Source: an uncultured Bacteroidota bacterium (GTDB lineage Bacteria > Bacteroidota > Bacteroidia > NS11-12g > UBA955). From it: a DNA stretch of 46,685 nt. The notes under the pieces were generated by a model. That model searched no databases. It was not told the origin of the DNA and was given only the letters and a program-made list of their open reading frames with translations. The position numbers and the translations under genes were made by a program. Positions 1 through 31,479 of the stretch are shown here, piece after piece. The stretch is taken from assembly GCA_937867025.1 (NCBI GenBank), contig CALMKH010000138.1, positions 1 to 46,685 on the forward strand, read 5' to 3'. How positions within the stretch are numbered: position 1 is the first letter of the stretch; the number at the start of each line of letters is the position of its first letter.

Positions 1-1357
1 CTCCCATCGCACTCGCTGTCAGCGTGGCGCCACTCTGTACGACCCGCACGTCCACCGTATCGATTGTCAGATCGAGTGTAATGATGCTGTCGCATCCATT
101 TGCGTTAACCAGTGTTTGTATAAATGTTCCGCTGCTCCTGTAGGTCACCTGGTTCAAGGTATAACTTCCGCATACTCTTACCGTATCAAACATGAAGCTT
201 GGCTGCCTGAGGATCAGGACAAGTGTTATCGTACTGTCGCATCCAGACGAGCTTGTCAGTGATTGGGTGTATGTACCGCTGCTGTCATAGGTCTGACCAT
301 TGAGTACAAAACTGTCACAGGCCTCTATGGTCATTAGCGTATCCGAAGGCATGACGATGGTCAGATTGATGGTAAGCAGGCTGTCGCAACCCGAAGCGTT
401 TGTCAGTGTCTGAACATACACACCACTGCTGTCGTAAGTCTGTCCGTTAAGCATGAGACTGTCGCAGGCTGTTATGGAAATTGAGCTGTCTGACATCTCC
501 AGAATAGTAAGGTTCACAATCAGTGTGCTGTCGCATCCGGAGACATTCATAAGATTCTGCACATATATTCCGCTTTGAGTGTACGTCTGGCCGTTCAATA
601 AGAAGGTGTCGCAGGCCGTGGTCGTAAGCACTCCGGCAGAACTGTTGCGTATTGTCAGGTTGAGGGTAAGCATGCTATCGCATCCCTGCGCATTGGTCAG
701 GGTCTGGGTATATGTACCGCTGCCCGTGTAGGAAATGCCGTTCAGCGTGAACGTATCGCAGGCGGTTATATTCATCGTACTGTCCGAACTGTTGGTTATG
801 GTAAGCATCAATGTCACTACACTGTCGCATCCTTCCGCATTGGTTAATACCTGGGTATAGGTTCCGCTGCTCATATATACGCTGTCATTCAGTTCGAAAC
901 TGTCGCAGGCGGTAACCGTCATTGTCGTATCGCTGCTCATAAGGACCGTCAGCGCCAGGAAAATAAAGCTGTCGCAACCGGCATTGTTTTCAAGTGTCTG
1001 CAGGTATAAGCCGCTTTCAAGGTAGACGCTGTCGTTCAGGACAAAACTGTCGCACGCTGTCATGATCATAACCGTGTCGGTGCTGTTGAGAATGGTTAGC
1101 TCCAGTGTCAGGAAACTGTCGCATCCACCAGTATTCTGTAACACCTGCATATATGTACCACTTTCTGAATAAGAACTGTCATTAAGCGTGAACGTGTCAC
1201 AGGATTCAACCACCAGGGTGTCATACGTATCCACGCATTGGGCGCTTGAACCGGAATGGAAACACACAGCAAGGAGAAACAGGAATACACCCTTTAAGCA
1301 CGTCAGGGCTTTTTTGCCGGTTTCCGGAAATTTAAGTTTTGTAAATTTGTGTATCAT
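1..1357 (-). CDS. Secreted tandem-repeat surface protein, N-terminal part (C-terminus lies beyond window edge)
   Basis: Open minus frame from ATG at 1357 (MIHKFTKLKFPETGKKALTCLKGVFLFLLAVCFHSGSSAQCVDTYDT...) to position 1 with no stop. Signal peptide, then 8 repeats of the form CDSFxLNGQTYxxSGxYxQTLTNAxGCDSxxTLNLTI, ending in ...DVRVVQSGATLTASAMG. Absent from the ORF track because it runs off the edge. Confidence 0.88.
   Translation of the reverse strand, partial: MIHKFTKLKFPETGKKALTCLKGVFLFLLAVCFHSGSSAQCVDTYDTLVVESCDTFTLNDSSYSESGTYMQVLQNTGGCDSFLTLELTILNSTDTVMIMTACDSFVLNDSVYLESGLYLQTLENNAGCDSFIFLALTVLMSSDTTMTVTACDSFELNDSVYMSSGTYTQVLTNAEGCDSVVTLMLTITNSSDSTMNITACDTFTLNGISYTGSGTYTQTLTNAQGCDSMLTLNLTIRNSSAGVLTTTACDTFLLNGQTYTQSGIYVQNLMNVSGCDSTLIVNLTILEMSDSSISITACDSLMLNGQTYDSSGVYVQTLTNASGCDSLLTINLTIVMPSDTLMTIEACDSFVLNGQTYDSSGTYTQSLTSSSGCDSTITLVLILRQPSFMFDTVRVCGSYTLNQVTYRSSGTFIQTLVNANGCDSIITLDLTIDTVDVRVVQSGATLTASAMG
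61..1210 (-). repeat. Coding tandem repeat, about 8 units of 147 bp (49 aa)
   Basis: The conserved 'tcgca(t/a)cc' word recurs with cgc at 91, 238, 385, 532, 679, 826, 973 and 1120, every interval exactly 147 bp. Confidence 0.93.
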
Positions 1358-1603: not shown

Positions 1604-3118
1604 TCAGTTTCCTGCACTCTGCAATATCTCGTCTATCAGACGCCTGTCATTGCTCAGCCTTGGCACTTTATGCTGGCCACCCAGCTTTCCTTTTTTCTTC
1701 AGCCAGTTGTAGAATGTATTGTTGGGCATAGACTGAATTTTAGGCATGCGCAAGGCTATGTCCTTGTGCCGTTTTGCCTCGTAATCGCTGTTCACTTCTT
1801 TCAGTTTGCTGTCGAGCGCCGAAGCAAAATCCTGTATGCTGTGCGGTTCCTTTTCAAACTCTATCAGCCATTCATGCGCGCCATTTTCCCTGCTTGCCAG
1901 ATACACGGGCGCTGCTGTATATTCCCTTACTTTGCTGTCGGTAACACTGCAGGCATGGGCTATAGCTTTTTCTGCATTTTCAATAACCACTTCCTCTCCG
2001 AACGCATTGATGAACAGTTTAGTCCTCCCGGTTATTGTAAATTTATATGGATTGGTGGACGAGAAAATGATAGTATCACCAAGCTGGTAACGCCATAATC
2101 CGCTGTTGTTGCTAATAATAATGGCATAGTTTACGCCTTTTTCCACTTCGCCCAGAAGACATGCCGGCGGATTCGCCTGGTCGAGATCGCTCACTTTTAC
2201 AAATTCGTAAAAAATACCGTAATCGGGCATCAGCAGCAGTGAAGGATCGGAAAGATCATTCTGCAGACCGAAAAAACCTTCACTTGCATTATAGGTTTCA
2301 AGATATCTCATGCCACTGTTCCGGATCATTTTCTGGAACAGGTCGCGGTACGGAACAAAACTTACGCCTCCATGTATATACAGCTGCAGGTTAGGCCATA
2401 TATCGGAAACATTATCCGTTCCTTTCATGGCCATCAGTTTTTCCATTAATACAATGGTCCAGGTAGGAACTCCTGAAATACTGGTAACATTCTCCGTTAT
2501 CACCTGGTTGGCCATTTTTTCCAGCTTCAGTTCCCAATCGTCCATCAGGGCAATGGATTTATCGGGCGTCTTAAGGAGGTTGACCCAGGTCGGCATATTG
2601 TTCATCAGCACGGCGCTCAGATCGCCATAGAAAGAGTTTTCATTGAACGAATTGATTTTGTGACTTCCGCCGATAAGCAGGCTCTTGCCGTCAAAGATGC
2701 CGGTTTCGGGCTCACTCAGGCAATAATATGTAAGCACGTCTTTCCCGCCTTGAAAATGACATTCTTCCAGTGTTTCATAACTTACAGGTATGAATTTGCT
2801 TTTGTCATTGGTGGTTCCGCTGCTCTTTGCAAACCATATAATTTCACCGGGCCAGAGGACGTTTGTATCTCCCCTCATAACCTTTTCAATATACGGCTTC
2901 AGTGATTCGTAATCCTGTATCGGAAACCTGTTCTTAAAGTCATTATAAGAGCTGACGGACTTGAAATCGTAGTGTCTTCCCCATTCCGTGTCCCGCGCAT
3001 CATCTATCAGCCTTCTCAAGACGTTCAACTGCACTTCGGCGGCATTTTTCACAGCGGTGTCCAGAGCGGTGATACGCTTCCTGAAATACCAGCTCATCAT
3101 TGTACTTAAGACTGCCAT
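1604..3118 (-). CDS. GH3 auxin-responsive promoter family protein (acyl-adenylate/amide synthetase-like)
   Basis: 504 aa; SSGTTNDKSKFIPVS, YNASEGFFGLQ, YQLGDTIIF and TGRTKLFINAFGEEV are GH3-family hallmarks. Confidence 0.85.
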   Translation of the reverse strand: MAVLSTMMSWYFRKRITALDTAVKNAAEVQLNVLRRLIDDARDTEWGRHYDFKSVSSYNDFKNRFPIQDYESLKPYIEKVMRGDTNVLWPGEIIWFAKSSGTTNDKSKFIPVSYETLEECHFQGGKDVLTYYCLSEPETGIFDGKSLLIGGSHKINSFNENSFYGDLSAVLMNNMPTWVNLLKTPDKSIALMDDWELKLEKMANQVITENVTSISGVPTWTIVLMEKLMAMKGTDNVSDIWPNLQLYIHGGVSFVPYRDLFQKMIRNSGMRYLETYNASEGFFGLQNDLSDPSLLLMPDYGIFYEFVKVSDLDQANPPACLLGEVEKGVNYAIIISNNSGLWRYQLGDTIIFSSTNPYKFTITGRTKLFINAFGEEVVIENAEKAIAHACSVTDSKVREYTAAPVYLASRENGAHEWLIEFEKEPHSIQDFASALDSKLKEVNSDYEAKRHKDIALRMPKIQSMPNNTFYNWLKKKGKLGGQHKVPRLSNDRRLIDEILQSAGN

Positions 3119-11337: not shown

Positions 11338-14300
11338 ATGAAAACCTTTAAGATCAACAGTCAGGCAAGGGCTGTCATGCTCTTTCTTGGCCTCCTGTGC
11401 TACAGGCATGAATCTTCCGGACAGTGCTTTATCACAACAACAGGCAGTCCCTGTGCAGGCAATCAGATCACTTTCAACTGTAACTCGATAGGCGCCTCCA
11501 ACTACAACTGGAACTTCAACGGCGAGGGTAGCAACACAAGCTCCTGTTCGCCCGCATTTGTTTTTAATACATCCGGCACTAAGGTTATTTCCCTGAGCAT
11601 GAGATTGCCTAACGGACAAACCTGCTCTGCAATGATCAATCTTACGGTCAATCAGAAACCTGAGATACGGTTCAGGCGCATTGGAGGAATGTGGCAGTGT
11701 TTTGCAAATAACAGTTTTTGTTTTACAGACAGCAGTTTGGCATTCAATGGTGCGACAATAAAAAAACGTACGGCTGTATTTAGCGATGGCACAAAATATA
11801 CCTTTTCGGGAAACGGGCCCGTGAGCTTCTGCCATTCATTCCAGGACCCCGCCGGCGGATCTTTTGGTGTTACAATAGAAGTGGAAGACGATAACGGATG
11901 CATCACCAAAACAAGCATCCCAGTGGTAGCCCGCGTCAGACCCAGCCTTGGCCTCAGTTTTACCACTCCCCAGCCAAAACGTTGCGACAGTGTGAAACTC
12001 TGCATCACCAACCGCTCTGCCGTTCTTCTTGACAGCATAGCGGCGCTTAGCTGGGATTGGGGTGACGGACTGAAGGACAACGGCAGCAAGAATACTCCCA
12101 ACTTATGGAAAGCCTTTGTGCCCAATGGCATCTGTCACTGGTATAAAACGCAGGGACCCAATAGCGGCAACTTTGATGTTAAGCTTAGCGTGACAACCAA
12201 TAGCGGCTGTACCGAAACGTTTACTTTCCAAAGTGCTGCCACAAATTTATTCATTAACCCCGTTGTCCTGGCTGATTTTGATTCGGTCTGTATATCGTCT
12301 CCGACTGTGACTTTCAGGCTAAAGGACGGGCCTGTACCCGGAGCGGCCAATCCTTTATACATGTATGAGCAGCCTTTTAATCCACCAAATTTTACAAGGG
12401 CCTGGACAGGCAGTCATGCATTTCCTGCACCCGGACCTTATAAAATCAATTTTTCATTTACCCATACTATTCCCGGATGCGGGAGAACCGTTTATGATAC
12501 AATTCTCGTGCTCGGCCCGCAAAGTATTATTGAAGGATCGACGACTGCTGGCATGCAGTTTATTACAGATTCCCTGAGATATTCCTGTGTCATAAAAGAC
12601 ACTGTCAGGTTTACGAATTTTTCGAAATTTTATCACAATGACACAAAGATGCTCGATGACGACAGTACGTTCAATCACCCCACAGGATTCAACAAACCCC
12701 TGGGCCACGTATTTACCGGTATTGCTAACCAGACATCCGTGAAAGCCAACCCTCAGAACCGGGGCAATGCCCATGTGAACAGGATATGGGATTTTGATGA
12801 CGAATACTGCGAAAGATGCACGACCGATACTAAAAAAGGCGTCAATATAAACAGGAACTGCAGGTATAGCAAAGATTCATTGCCATGGCACATGTATACA
12901 CCATGGGATAAAATTTATCAGGAACAATTTGCGCACAAGCCTTCCGCCATCATGGTGTTTAACAGGGATTCGGGCTACTATTACAGGCGCAACCTGTGGA
13001 GCGATGATTCGGTGGCTATCGTCCGCGATACCGTCTTGTATTACGGTGATAACCCTCTTGCGATAGTGACAAAAGACTCCGTCATCTATTCAACTATCAC
13101 TAAAAAGGTCAGAACATTTAAGCATATAGCCGGCATCTCACGTACTGATTTCAGCGTTACTACGCGCTTTTACGTACCGGCCGGCGATACTATCTATATC
13201 GATGCCAATAACGGCTTGCCGCCCAACAGGTGGATCGGTCCGAGGTATATCAATGTCGTGGGTGGTTATAGCCTGGTGCTGAAGAGCAAGACGGATAAAG
13301 CGCTTTACAATGTATGGATCGAAACCTCACAGGATACCATACCGCTGCACATGGTGGACAGTTCCCACAGGATATGGAAGAAGGAACGCGTTTATGGTTA
13401 TGTTCAGGGCGACAGCGTCAGCCCTGCCGCGCACCGGCAAATGTTCTACTCCGGAGAAAAGGTCAGGTGTTTCAATGTGAAGTTGTGGCAGAAGGATATA
13501 AAACATCCGATGGCCTGCGCAAATGAGAAAACTGCTCCTCTTTCGCTGATGCCGGCAAGCGCCCGTGGTTTGCGGAAAGCCGGGGTGCAATGTTATGGCA
13601 GCGATGTGGACGCATACGGCATCACATTTATACTCGATGAAACAAAACCTGGTTGCAGCCGGACCTGGGCTGAGATCAACTTCGATACGGCCTTTAACAG
13701 GAATGGCTGGGTTCCGGCCATTGGCAAAAACCTTGGCCCGGGATCCATTTCCGCAGGCGATCTTCCTCCTGTGAATTTTCCATATGGTGTGCCTTTCCCC
13801 GATTATGCAAGGAGCGGACCCGCACCATCTCGATTCTCAACGATATACACATCCGATATGGTGAAAGACAGGAAAACAGGTTATGTGCACGTGGGACTGA
13901 TTGTCGGAAACGGTATATGGCCCAATAAAATATATCCGCAAACATGTCATGACACCGCATATTACCACAATTTTGCCAGGTTCCCTGTGCTTGATAACCG
14001 TTTCCGTGTGATCAAACCGTCGCAAGGCTCAGAGTACACGCATATCTGCAGGAAAGACTCCATTCATCTCGGACTGAACGGTTACAATACATCAAATATG
14101 GAGGATGTAAAAACCGCCTCGTGGGTATTGTCCAGTGAGACCTCCGGCAAATACTTCAACGTGCCCAGCTGGCTGCGGGTGGATGAAACCTATAAACGTT
14201 TCAGCCGGGTACATCCCGATACTCCCTACCTGGTGGATAAGCTCAGCGTTGTGAGGCGCAGCCACTCCAATGGTGTTACCGTGACAACCGACAGCCAGGA

Positions 14301-16035
14301 ATTCCGTATCGCCAAGATTACCAAATGGCACAATGAAGCGGATATATACAAAGTATACCACCAGGTGGAAATAAAGCTCCAGGGTTCAGGCATTAAGCTT
14401 GCAGAACTCGGACCTGCCCAAATTGCCGACCTGGTATGGAACGGAAAGGGCACTATCGGTAAACCTTATACCGGCTCCAGGGGGATTCTTGACACAACAG
14501 GATTCGGTCACCTCATACAGTTCCGTATGGTAGCAGATCAGAAACAGACCCTGCATGTCCGTGACACTTCCTTGCAGCCGCTGGACAAAACTACAGGGCC
14601 GGGCGGGACATCATACCATGTGTATTCCTTTATTCCGCCGTATGCAGGATTTTATACAGCCAACCTTGAACTGAATGCCGGCATACCGGAATCATGTCCG
14701 AAAACACAAGGTCAGGCTAAAAAAGTTATAGTCGGTTTTTATGCCAATATGGGTTACACCGATACGATACTCTGCCATGGACAGCCTGTCAACGCTTCTC
14801 CGGTTTTCAGGTATTTCGAAGTCTATCCCGAAATCACTTTCCGCCTGCTCGATCCTGTGGATTACTGGAGAGCCAGGATCGGTGAGGCCGGCAATCCTAA
14901 GCGGGAAGGCTATACCATCACTGACCTGAATAAGGCCGATGACGACCTGAGCAAACCTCAGACAATTTTCGGCGGATTCCCGTATTCTGTTACCGGCCTT
15001 GACAATAGACCATCCGAAGTTCTGCAACTGGGAGGCTTAAATAACGGAATATATTACGGAAAAGATACCGGTGCTGCGTATGTGTTGCGCACTGCCGCAG
15101 CAGATAGTTTCGGATGCAGAGACACGTTTGTCCAGGAAATATATACTACTGCAGCCAGGGCCAAATTCAAGATTATTCAATCACGGCCCCAATGCAATAC
15201 CATTATCGAACTGTTCGACTCATCCTATATCATTGATCCGCATAAAGCAAGGTATGGCTTATCATCTGACAAGATCGTCAAATGGACAGTAGACTGGGGA
15301 GATAAAAAAACGTCATCCGTTGTATCCTATTTCGATAGCATACCACAGGGTATTTCGCATGTTTACACCTATTCGGGAATTTTCCATGTGAAGGTCAGAG
15401 TGGAAAGTGCCCTTGGTTGCAGCGATTGGGATTCCATCATGTTCAGCATTCCCGACCGCAGGCCGGAATTCGACACCAGTATCAAACGCATATATTGTAT
15501 CAATGAAAAAGTGACATTCAAGAACCTGAGTAAATACATGCGAAGGGACAGTATGGTATGGATCTGGGAATTCGGCGATAACACATTTGGCAATCAATAT
15601 GATACGATCACATCAGCCAATGACACCATGAATCACAGGTACAAGCAACCCGGAATATATAGCATCATGCTTTATGGATCATACTATAAAACGCCCGGTG
15701 GCGGAGCAACAGGAGCGCGCTGTTCTGAAGTATTCCCGGACACCACAGAAAACTACCAACGCCCGTTCACCATTAAAGTGATCGACTGCGATACAACAGG
15801 CATCAGAGAGGTGAGACTCAGCAATGTCAGCATGTTCCCCAACCCCGCTCATCATACCGTAACAATATCCGGAAAGGCGGCTATGAATATAGAGTTCATT
15901 GACGCGACGGGCCGGATGGTAAAGAGCGCCAGGAAACCGGAGGGTGATCATGTGATCGATATCCGTGGCCTGTCTCCTGGAATTTACCTCGTGCGAGGGG
16001 ACGGTAAAGAAATCGGAAAACTCCTTGTTGAATAA
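11338..16035 (+). CDS. Large secreted PKD-domain protein with T9SS type A sorting domain
   Basis: 1565 aa; signal peptide; PKD-like WDWGDG, WTVDWGD...GISHVYTYSGIFHVKVRV and WIWEFGDNT...NHRYKQPGIYSI; C-terminus VSMFPNPAHHTVTI...GLSPGIYLVRGDGKEIGKLLVE. Confidence 0.9.
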   Translation: MKTFKINSQARAVMLFLGLLCYRHESSGQCFITTTGSPCAGNQITFNCNSIGASNYNWNFNGEGSNTSSCSPAFVFNTSGTKVISLSMRLPNGQTCSAMINLTVNQKPEIRFRRIGGMWQCFANNSFCFTDSSLAFNGATIKKRTAVFSDGTKYTFSGNGPVSFCHSFQDPAGGSFGVTIEVEDDNGCITKTSIPVVARVRPSLGLSFTTPQPKRCDSVKLCITNRSAVLLDSIAALSWDWGDGLKDNGSKNTPNLWKAFVPNGICHWYKTQGPNSGNFDVKLSVTTNSGCTETFTFQSAATNLFINPVVLADFDSVCISSPTVTFRLKDGPVPGAANPLYMYEQPFNPPNFTRAWTGSHAFPAPGPYKINFSFTHTIPGCGRTVYDTILVLGPQSIIEGSTTAGMQFITDSLRYSCVIKDTVRFTNFSKFYHNDTKMLDDDSTFNHPTGFNKPLGHVFTGIANQTSVKANPQNRGNAHVNRIWDFDDEYCERCTTDTKKGVNINRNCRYSKDSLPWHMYTPWDKIYQEQFAHKPSAIMVFNRDSGYYYRRNLWSDDSVAIVRDTVLYYGDNPLAIVTKDSVIYSTITKKVRTFKHIAGISRTDFSVTTRFYVPAGDTIYIDANNGLPPNRWIGPRYINVVGGYSLVLKSKTDKALYNVWIETSQDTIPLHMVDSSHRIWKKERVYGYVQGDSVSPAAHRQMFYSGEKVRCFNVKLWQKDIKHPMACANEKTAPLSLMPASARGLRKAGVQCYGSDVDAYGITFILDETKPGCSRTWAEINFDTAFNRNGWVPAIGKNLGPGSISAGDLPPVNFPYGVPFPDYARSGPAPSRFSTIYTSDMVKDRKTGYVHVGLIVGNGIWPNKIYPQTCHDTAYYHNFARFPVLDNRFRVIKPSQGSEYTHICRKDSIHLGLNGYNTSNMEDVKTASWVLSSETSGKYFNVPSWLRVDETYKRFSRVHPDTPYLVDKLSVVRRSHSNGVTVTTDSQEFRIAKITKWHNEADIYKVYHQVEIKLQGSGIKLAELGPAQIADLVWNGKGTIGKPYTGSRGILDTTGFGHLIQFRMVADQKQTLHVRDTSLQPLDKTTGPGGTSYHVYSFIPPYAGFYTANLELNAGIPESCPKTQGQAKKVIVGFYANMGYTDTILCHGQPVNASPVFRYFEVYPEITFRLLDPVDYWRARIGEAGNPKREGYTITDLNKADDDLSKPQTIFGGFPYSVTGLDNRPSEVLQLGGLNNGIYYGKDTGAAYVLRTAAADSFGCRDTFVQEIYTTAARAKFKIIQSRPQCNTIIELFDSSYIIDPHKARYGLSSDKIVKWTVDWGDKKTSSVVSYFDSIPQGISHVYTYSGIFHVKVRVESALGCSDWDSIMFSIPDRRPEFDTSIKRIYCINEKVTFKNLSKYMRRDSMVWIWEFGDNTFGNQYDTITSANDTMNHRYKQPGIYSIMLYGSYYKTPGGGATGARCSEVFPDTTENYQRPFTIKVIDCDTTGIREVRLSNVSMFPNPAHHTVTISGKAAMNIEFIDATGRMVKSARKPEGDHVIDIRGLSPGIYLVRGDGKEIGKLLVE

Positions 16036-29356: not shown

Positions 29357-30373
29357 ATGAAGTCTTGTTTTCATTATTTATTGTTTTTACTGTCAAGCAT
29401 TGTTCTTAATTCCTGTTCCAACGATCTCGAAGCGCTTGCCGAATATGAGGAGACCGCGTCTGTTTATGCCCTGCTCGACCCCAGGCAGGCTTACCAGTTT
29501 GTCAAGATCAACAAAGTGTTCATCAACCCGGGATCAAAAGCCACTGATATAGCCAGAATATCCGATTCCATCTTTTTCGACACGCTTGCCCCGCAGCTTG
29601 TGGAACTCGACAATGGCAGCGTCAGGCAGGTTATACCGCTCACCCGCGCCAACATATTGCTTAAAGACAGCGGCACCTTCGCCAACTCGCCGAATTACCT
29701 GTATGTCACCAATAAACCTGTTTCCAGCTTATACCAGTACAGGCTGGAAGTAAAACTTCCCAAAACCAACAAACTTGTCACTGCTACAACGAATATGGTG
29801 ACCATGCCCATAGCTTCACTTTCGCAACCGATCCTGGTGTTCCAGATACCAAGGATCATTAATATTCCTACTACGCCTAACGGCAACATCGCGATATCTT
29901 TTAGCTCAGGCATGAACGGGAAAATATATGACGCTTTTTTCAATTTCAATTACCAGGAAATAAGCAAGGCGGACACTTCGCAGAAGACCGTAAAAACCAT
30001 TCGCTGGAAGATACTCAGAAGCTACAGGACCATCAAGGACAAAGGCAATGAGAATGTCATACAGAGAATTCCCAGCTCCCTGTTTTACAACATGCTTCTG
30101 AATGAGATCCCTCTCAATCCCGGAGTAACCAGGCATTTTCTTCCGTGCTCTATTGAGCTGATTGGGGGCAACCAGGAACTTGACAATTATATCCAGGCAT
30201 CGGTGCCTTCCATCGGTATTGTTCAAAAACAGACGGAGTATACCAATATCAAGGGCGGAATTGGTCTTTTCGCCTCCAGGAATACATTGTTTATAGATGA
30301 GGTACACCTGATCTCGACCAATAAGAGCTATATCATTAATGATCCGCTTTTAAAACCCCTTGGGTTTCAGTGA
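29357..30373 (+). CDS. DUF4249-like lipoprotein (copy 1)
   Basis: 338 aa; lipobox LNSCSNDLE; EETASVYALLDPRQAYQFVKINKVFINPG; close paralogue of next gene. Confidence 0.65.
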   Translation: MKSCFHYLLFLLSSIVLNSCSNDLEALAEYEETASVYALLDPRQAYQFVKINKVFINPGSKATDIARISDSIFFDTLAPQLVELDNGSVRQVIPLTRANILLKDSGTFANSPNYLYVTNKPVSSLYQYRLEVKLPKTNKLVTATTNMVTMPIASLSQPILVFQIPRIINIPTTPNGNIAISFSSGMNGKIYDAFFNFNYQEISKADTSQKTVKTIRWKILRSYRTIKDKGNENVIQRIPSSLFYNMLLNEIPLNPGVTRHFLPCSIELIGGNQELDNYIQASVPSIGIVQKQTEYTNIKGGIGLFASRNTLFIDEVHLISTNKSYIINDPLLKPLGFQ

Positions 30374-30459: not shown

Positions 30460-31479
30460 ATGAACTCCCGGGTGCGCTGTATGTTCTTCCTTATCCCTGC
30501 CCTGCTGGCCAACTCATGCGCCAACGAGGTGGAAGTGCTGGGTGATTATGAGGAAAATGCAGCCGTTTTCGCTTTGCTCGACCCTTCGCAACCCAGGCAA
30601 TTTGTAAAAATCAACAAGGTGTTTACAAACCCCCACGCCAGGGCGTCGGATGTGGCAAAAATTGCGGATTCACTTTATTTCGATACGCTTGCACCTTTCC
30701 TCACCGAAGTTCAGAATGGCGCCGTTCTGCGAAAAATTCCCCTTTACAGGGCAAATGTCCTCCTCAAGGACGAAGGCACCTTTGCCACTGCGCCCAACTA
30801 CCTCTATGTGACCAATGAAAGCATTTCAAGCCTGTTTGAATACAGGCTTGAATTCATGCTTCCTGCAACCCGCCGGCTGATCACTGCAAAAACGAATATT
30901 GTGCGCATGAGCCCCGGCGACCTTTTCCTGCCTGTAAACCCCGCCAGTGTTCCCAGGGAGATCAATATTCCTCCCTTTATAGAATCCGGGATACAGGTAA
31001 AATTCGCCACAGGGAAAAACGGTAAAATCTATGATGCCTTCTTCATATTCAATTACCTTGAAGTGAATAACAATGACACAAATATCAAAACCGTAAAGAC
31101 TATCAGGTGGAAAATATTAAAGGGTTTCAGAACCGTATTCGACAGGGGGAATGAAATTGTCAGCCAGCGCATGCCAGGAAGGCATTTTTATGATATGCTG
31201 CTCCAGAAAATTGCCGTTGACAGCACTGTCACCCGCAGATTCCTGCCCTGCTCGCTCGAATTTACAGGAGGCAATGCGGAACTTGATAATTATATCCAAT
31301 CCACAATCGTATCCATAGGCATCGTGCAGAAACAGCAGGATTACACCAATATAGAAGGCGGGGGAATTGGTATTTTTGCCGCGCGGACCACAGCCGTCAT
31401 CGATAATATCCTGGTCGGCGAACTCACCAGGAAAACCCTCTATTCATATCCGGAATACTCCGTATTGGGTTTTAAATAA
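30460..31479 (+). CDS. DUF4249-like lipoprotein (copy 2)
   Basis: 339 aa; lipobox ANSCANEVE; EENAAVFALLDPSQPRQFVKINKVFTNP; collinear with copy 1 throughout. Confidence 0.65.
   Translation: MNSRVRCMFFLIPALLANSCANEVEVLGDYEENAAVFALLDPSQPRQFVKINKVFTNPHARASDVAKIADSLYFDTLAPFLTEVQNGAVLRKIPLYRANVLLKDEGTFATAPNYLYVTNESISSLFEYRLEFMLPATRRLITAKTNIVRMSPGDLFLPVNPASVPREINIPPFIESGIQVKFATGKNGKIYDAFFIFNYLEVNNNDTNIKTVKTIRWKILKGFRTVFDRGNEIVSQRMPGRHFYDMLLQKIAVDSTVTRRFLPCSLEFTGGNAELDNYIQSTIVSIGIVQKQQDYTNIEGGGIGIFAARTTAVIDNILVGELTRKTLYSYPEYSVLGFK

Follow-up and report, generated by a model that had tools for sequence, protein, structure and literature searches.

A tandem mini-Ig repeat of Bacteroidota T9SS proteins with probable disulfides between neighbouring units

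We analysed a 46,685-nucleotide window, one of the 319 contigs (C138) of a Bacteroidota genome, and found at its edge a truncated gene encoding a tandem array of 49-residue units. We read its product, with a probability of roughly three in four, as a T9SS-exported rod of mini-Ig domains in which each first cysteine (C1) is bonded to the second cysteine (C2) of the following unit, with caps at both ends. We infer the C1(n)–C2(n+1) disulfides themselves from the statistics of cysteine loss in related arrays and from the topology given by residue coupling. With less confidence, we also lean towards a broader reading in which the unit is a widespread, uncatalogued Bacteroidota mini-Ig module: neighbours would be joined both by the peptide chain and by a C1(n)–C2(n+1) disulfide, N- and C-terminal caps would use the last free cysteines, and the resulting cable could be severed neither by a single cut nor by a single reduced bond.

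Results

The edge gene lies on the minus strand, starts at an ATG at position 1357 and runs off the contig at base 1, and its frame is open from upstream of this ATG to base 2 with no stop codon or frameshift. From the translation we read a Sec signal peptide of the kind carried by T9SS type-A proteins (residues 1–39; 1241–1357), with a hydrophobic core and a putative A|Q cleavage site at residues 39/40 (...SGSSA|QC) that conforms to the Q-rule (PMC10653852). An N-cap cysteine stands at residue 41, mature position 2 (1235–1237), 12 residues upstream of unit 1 C1. It is followed, all on the minus strand, by unit 1 at 1064–1210 (C1 1199–1201; C2, Cys79, 1121–1123), unit 2 at 917–1063 (C1 1052–1054; C2 974–976, the putative partner of unit 1 C1), unit 3 at 770–916 (C1 905–907; C2 827–829), unit 4 at 623–769 (C1 758–760; C2 680–682), unit 5 at 476–622 (C1 611–613; C2 533–535), unit 6 at 329–475 (C1 464–466; C2 386–388), unit 7 at 182–328 (C1 317–319; C2 239–241) and unit 8, the last, at 35–181 (C1 170–172; C2 92–94). 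The frame then enters a cap domain (SGATLTASAMG; 2–34) and meets the contig end. The array itself is complete within the window and the missing piece is the domain after it, which in relatives goes on as YQWLDC...NGC.DTSxC and is followed by a T9SS type-A tail.

A preliminary description of this DNA had reported an exact register, alternating cysteine spacing and divergence of the units at constant length, and all three hold in the window: each of the eight units spans exactly 147 bp and 49 residues, the cysteine spacing runs 26, 23, 26, 23 without exception, and mean identity between units is 51% in protein and 55% in DNA. Self-identity of the edge protein reaches 0.53 at lag 49 and 0.50 at lag 98, where the mean for lags 20–109 is 0.09, and the lag-49 signal rules out a chance or low-complexity repeat. 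Unit-versus-unit identity is 38% at third codon positions and 63–65% at the first and second, dN is about 0.3–0.7 and dS is saturated, which argues for a pattern held by selection rather than by recent copying; by these comparisons the units are old copies under purifying selection. Tandem Repeats Finder did not detect the array in the window, a miss explained by the age and divergence of the units. In composition the array is Ser/Thr-rich; it is also acidic and free of lysine (35–1237, minus strand; 31 Asp, 9 Glu, 5 Arg, 0 Lys), unlike its closest relatives such as L054, which are Lys-rich.

Several lines of evidence bear out the earlier view of a T9SS-type secreted protein. Beside the A|Q signal peptide, the host genome encodes the secretion machinery (SprA, 2446 bits; the PorU sortase, 1228 bits), and a C-terminal sorting domain (PF18962/TIGR04183) was found in paralogues on contigs C271, C74, C40 and C189 and in the relative L054. 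Por_Secre_tail (PF18962) scored above cut-off in complete relatives, and the type-B model CHU_C scored below cut-off in those examined, which bear type-A tails. The edge protein very probably belongs to the T9SS type-A substrates, its own tail position lying beyond the contig edge. Since complete relatives end with a cap and a type-A tail, comparison with them indicates that the missing 3′ end should encode both. No contig in the genome was recognised as carrying this piece; contig C271 was considered and rejected, as it starts mid-unit and fits a gene broken at the end of contig C8, and C8 and C271 are probably two halves of one gene. The genome as a whole carries a heavy T9SS load, with about 140 places above the Por_Secre_tail cut-off in 3.7 Mb.

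The repeat occurs at five further places in the same genome (C74, C189, C40 and C8/C271), following FG-GAP-like repeats on C74 and C189 and SBBP-like repeats on C40. A relative from a genome of the same genus, L054, presents the same architecture in complete form, with a signal peptide, 18 units, a cap and a Por_Secre_tail in 1,079 residues. Across the order the unit was found in 88 of 108 genomes, and across the class in 244 of 395 sampled genomes. Open frames with the unit reach 5,737 residues; two array-bearing frames of genome G715, on its contigs C10 and C15 (L323, 5,737 residues; L324, 5,272 residues), are among the largest in the survey. Arrays in relatives also sit behind propeller-like, LamG-like and other domains, and an ordinary Bacteroidota Ig-like domain often precedes them. 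The C1-to-C2 spacing is variable, mostly 26–30 residues, and the C2-to-C1 spacing is nearly fixed at 22–24 (1,229 of 1,260 cases), so that the period ranges from 45 to 57 residues over all relatives. The exact 49-residue register is the commonest state among close relatives, a 26/23 subfamily, and is not peculiar to the edge gene.

Searches of Pfam, NCBIfam and PDB sequences returned no family covering the unit. The window protein matched 0 Pfam families at E ≤ 1, 24 diverse members yielded no Pfam family that matched more than one of them, and no existing Ig or PKD Pfam model recognised the unit. The unit is very common in Bacteroidota, and yet none of the libraries searched offers a named family for it.

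We examined the fold by structure prediction and residue coupling. AF2 modelled units 4–7 as all beta with ordered strands (pLDDT 88.4), in keeping with the beta units proposed before, and modelled two units, cap and tail of the relative L085 with a pLDDT of 85.5; pTM was 0.47–0.50 in both models, so relative domain placement is uncertain. Foldseek ranked the Ig filament of GhpA first for both models (E 1e-6 to 2e-7), with further matches to many tandem Ig chains including animal tandem Ig proteins, and matched the L085 tail to the T9SS sorting domain of NucA (8glk; TM 0.83). In a mean-field coupling analysis of 1,258 neighbouring unit pairs (Meff about 1,000), strands A and G within a unit run in parallel (1-1/2+10, 1-4/2+7, 1-5/2+6, 1-6/2+5), F and G run antiparallel, and A begins beside the FG loop. 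This pattern corresponds to the A′–G and F–G core of an Ig domain, and together with the all-beta AF2 models and Foldseek matches it indicates an Ig superfold. By the coupling ladders, C1 lies at one end of the unit and C2 at the other. Couplings between units that support a C1(n)/C2(n+1) contact are few and modest: 1-1 × 2′-1 and 1-2 × 2′-2 lie beside the proposed bond at a separation of 75, 2+11 × 2′-2 reaches 3 sd where shuffled pairings score −0.9 to −0.1, and 1+1 × 1′-10 also agrees with contact between units. Scores between the cysteine columns themselves were discarded as an artefact of invariance, all being 8.6 when only intact units were used.

Two cysteines that bond with each other should be lost together, so patterns of cysteine loss report pairing. 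We compiled 233 arrays of at least three units, comprising 1,533 units from about 360 loci; the arrays are phylogenetically related, and sequence clustering (193 clusters) corrects for kinship only in part. Not one of 1,482 evaluable units had lost both of its cysteines, and 52 orphan cases were found. Middle units kept both in 1,063 of 1,067 cases, all four exceptions falling in a single protein, L110. At the ends, C2 alone was lost from 24 first units and C1 alone from 15 last units, an asymmetry (p = 1.4e-5) that is predicted by C1(n)–C2(n+1) pairing, which leaves the first C2 and the last C1 without a partner in the array. C2 was missing in last position from two units, in L104 and in L325, the latter truncated at a contig end. 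Seven apparent losses of first-unit C1 were set aside: five were ordinary Ig-like domains with a cysteine 44–54 residues before C2, and two were cut by the contig end or the frame start. L110 itself, from a Bacteroidales of horse faeces (open reading frame from base 3006, plus strand), is a two-unit super-repeat in which six units alternate between C1 only and C2 only.

The terminal cysteines depend on cysteines in the flanking sequence. Where the last-unit C1 is present, another cysteine follows within 95 residues in 206 of 206 arrays, against 5 of 14 where it is absent (p = 7e-13; p = 3.5e-12 over the 193 sequence clusters), and a cysteine occupies +64 to +95 in 204 of 207 arrays with this C1. 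In L135 and L142 precisely two cysteines are absent, the one at +70 in the cap and the last-unit C1. Arrays without the last C1 mostly continue directly into a sorting tail, into dockerin-like sequence of the GDxNGDG type or into a Cys-free pectate-lyase-like domain, as named by eye; those of L083 and L325 are followed by a long series of GDxNGDG repeats, dockerin- or EF-hand-like. Upstream, an N-cap cysteine at −11 to −13 is present in 65 of 187 arrays with first-unit C2 and in 0 of 24 without (p = 1e-4). About 20 arrays keep first-unit C2 with no cysteine within 82 residues upstream; most of these have one at 86–131 in a preceding domain of another kind, and a few only at 176 to 347. L312 keeps first-unit C2 though the usual LamG cysteine is gone, and some arrays behind other domains fit no simple rule for this residue.

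These patterns bear directly on the other ways in which the cysteines could pair. The preliminary description had proposed that the two cysteines of one unit, 26 residues apart, bond with each other, which would make the array a string of independently stapled beads. Small disulfide-rich domains are common, and C1 and C2 are equal in number in each middle unit, as such a bond would have it; against it stand the 52 orphans with no unit lacking both cysteines, the single cysteine per unit in L110, a coupling topology that sets the two about 11 strand residues apart at opposite ends of the domain, and an N-cap cysteine left without explanation. Cysteine loss in the 233 arrays and the coupling-derived topology contradict this pairing, and we consider it unlikely. 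Stapling of C2(n) to C1(n+1), 23 residues apart at the base of a long hairpin between G and the next A, would draw on the most constant spacing of the array and fits L110 as well, since that protein has lost exactly such pairs. It leaves 37 orphans in 1,256 pairs versus 9 for C1(n)–C2(n+1), however, loss of first-unit C2 is never accompanied by loss of second-unit C1, and coupling gives no G(n)/A(n+1) hairpin (mean 0.15 sd), A being parallel to G of its own unit; we hold this arrangement to be no more probable than the first and, if anything, less so.

A still smaller chance falls to cysteines that cross-link separate molecules or bind metal rather than chain one rod together. The Bacteroidota Ig protein GhpA, related in kind, assembles into filaments of many chains (8 PDB entries contain 56 of them), but the terminal cysteines of the arrays depend on cysteines that the same chain carries in its adjoining domain, the separation-75 couplings fit an in-chain bond, and no histidine is conserved alongside the cysteines. 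That the cysteines are natively free thiols in a passive low-complexity spacer is hardly credible: the Ser/Thr-rich composition is typical of spacers, but near-absolute cysteine conservation at saturated dS, the ordered AF2 model and a pairing logic conserved at both ends all speak against it.

Under the preferred C1(n)–C2(n+1) pairing, each unit would be a minimal Ig-like domain of about 49 residues with strands A-B-C-F-G, repeated in tandem. C1 would lie where strand A ends, in the AB loop at the bottom of the domain and at the same height as the end of G; C2 would lie in the FG loop where G starts, at the top. Neighbours would touch bottom to top, C1(n) meeting C2(n+1), with each interface held by the peptide linker and one disulfide. 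At the ends, N-cap Cys41 would partner unit 1 C2 (Cys79), and the last-unit C1, in unit 8 of the edge gene, would bond a cysteine of the Ig-like cap, past the end of the contig. As strands A and G would both run from top to bottom of the domain, the rod may be spanned from end to end by two covalent paths, A1-SS-G2-A3-SS-G4... and G1-A2-SS-G3-A4..., leaving the 26 residues of B-C-F outside the line of load. Each disulfide loop from C1(n) to C2(n+1) would span 75 residues and overlap the next; every point of the array would then lie inside at least one loop, so that, given this pairing and topology, a single cut could not sever the rod.

Discussion

The architecture we propose would probably serve as a stalk, stiff and resistant to proteases and force, that keeps other domains, or the rod itself, at a distance from the cell. 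Because relatives also carry the array downstream of other domains, propeller-like and LamG-like ones among them, a role as stalk or adhesive fibre is likely; within the window the edge protein has no binding domain. The earlier suggestion of a disulfide-stapled surface rod under structural constraint retains the stapling, the rod and the constraint, with the bond moved from within units to between them, and its companion idea of a surface stalk or adhesin is, as to function, a matter of interpretation.

Tandem Ig-like stalks are familiar, and to our knowledge those described are hardened inside each domain. In the literature we could search, in which subscription papers were thinly covered, we found no account of the repeat or of inter-domain disulfides in Ig arrays; as far as this search extends, the C1(n)–C2(n+1) pattern along the chain is undescribed, and its component parts are familiar. 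The closest structural counterpart, grappling hook protein A (GhpA) of Aureispira sp. CCB-QB1 (PDB 9flp, 9flv, 9flw, 9fly; 5,898 residues), is likewise a Bacteroidota surface protein with many tandem Ig-like domains. The ordinary Bacteroidota Ig-like domain often seen upstream of the arrays matches the domains of GhpA (E 1e-83), whose repeat measures about 83 residues versus 49 in the edge gene. Profiles of the 49-residue unit matched none of the GhpA chains up to E = 10, and the predicted models point to a resemblance at the level of fold only, outside the GhpA family by sequence.

Covalent cross-links also harden the tandem Ig-like domains of the giant adhesin of the Gram-positive Mobiluncus; PMC10619420 describes them as ester, isopeptide, disulfide and thioester bonds within each domain, unlike the cross-links between neighbouring domains that the edge-gene rod would have. 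Among Bacteroidota, the SprB gliding adhesin of Flavobacterium is likewise a surface protein of large size exported by T9SS (PMC12635249); it is a type-B cargo moved by SprF. The complete relatives of the array share the Por_Secre_tail (PF18962) of type-A substrates, and the window gene ends before the tail position. The disulfides in the SprB paper join SprF to GldK, and the term 'Ig-like' is absent from its text (PMC12635249).

If the reading is true, a rod with both backbone and disulfide at each junction, its pattern completed by caps at the ends, would explain how Bacteroidota build long exposed proteins able to survive proteases and pulling, and would suggest a way of designing protein cables that resist force. 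The pairing rule would be a readable guide for annotating many unnamed T9SS proteins, the unit is ready to become a Pfam-type family, and L110 is a naturally occurring case on which the pairing can be tried.

Elsewhere in the window, a plus-strand gene at 11338–16035 encodes a 1,565-residue secreted protein with PKD-like segments and a type-A tail at 15832–16008 (41 bits), so the window holds two T9SS cargo genes, this one and the edge gene. Two clearly related secreted or lipoprotein-like genes of about 339 residues each stand in tandem on the plus strand at 29357–30373 and 30460–31479.
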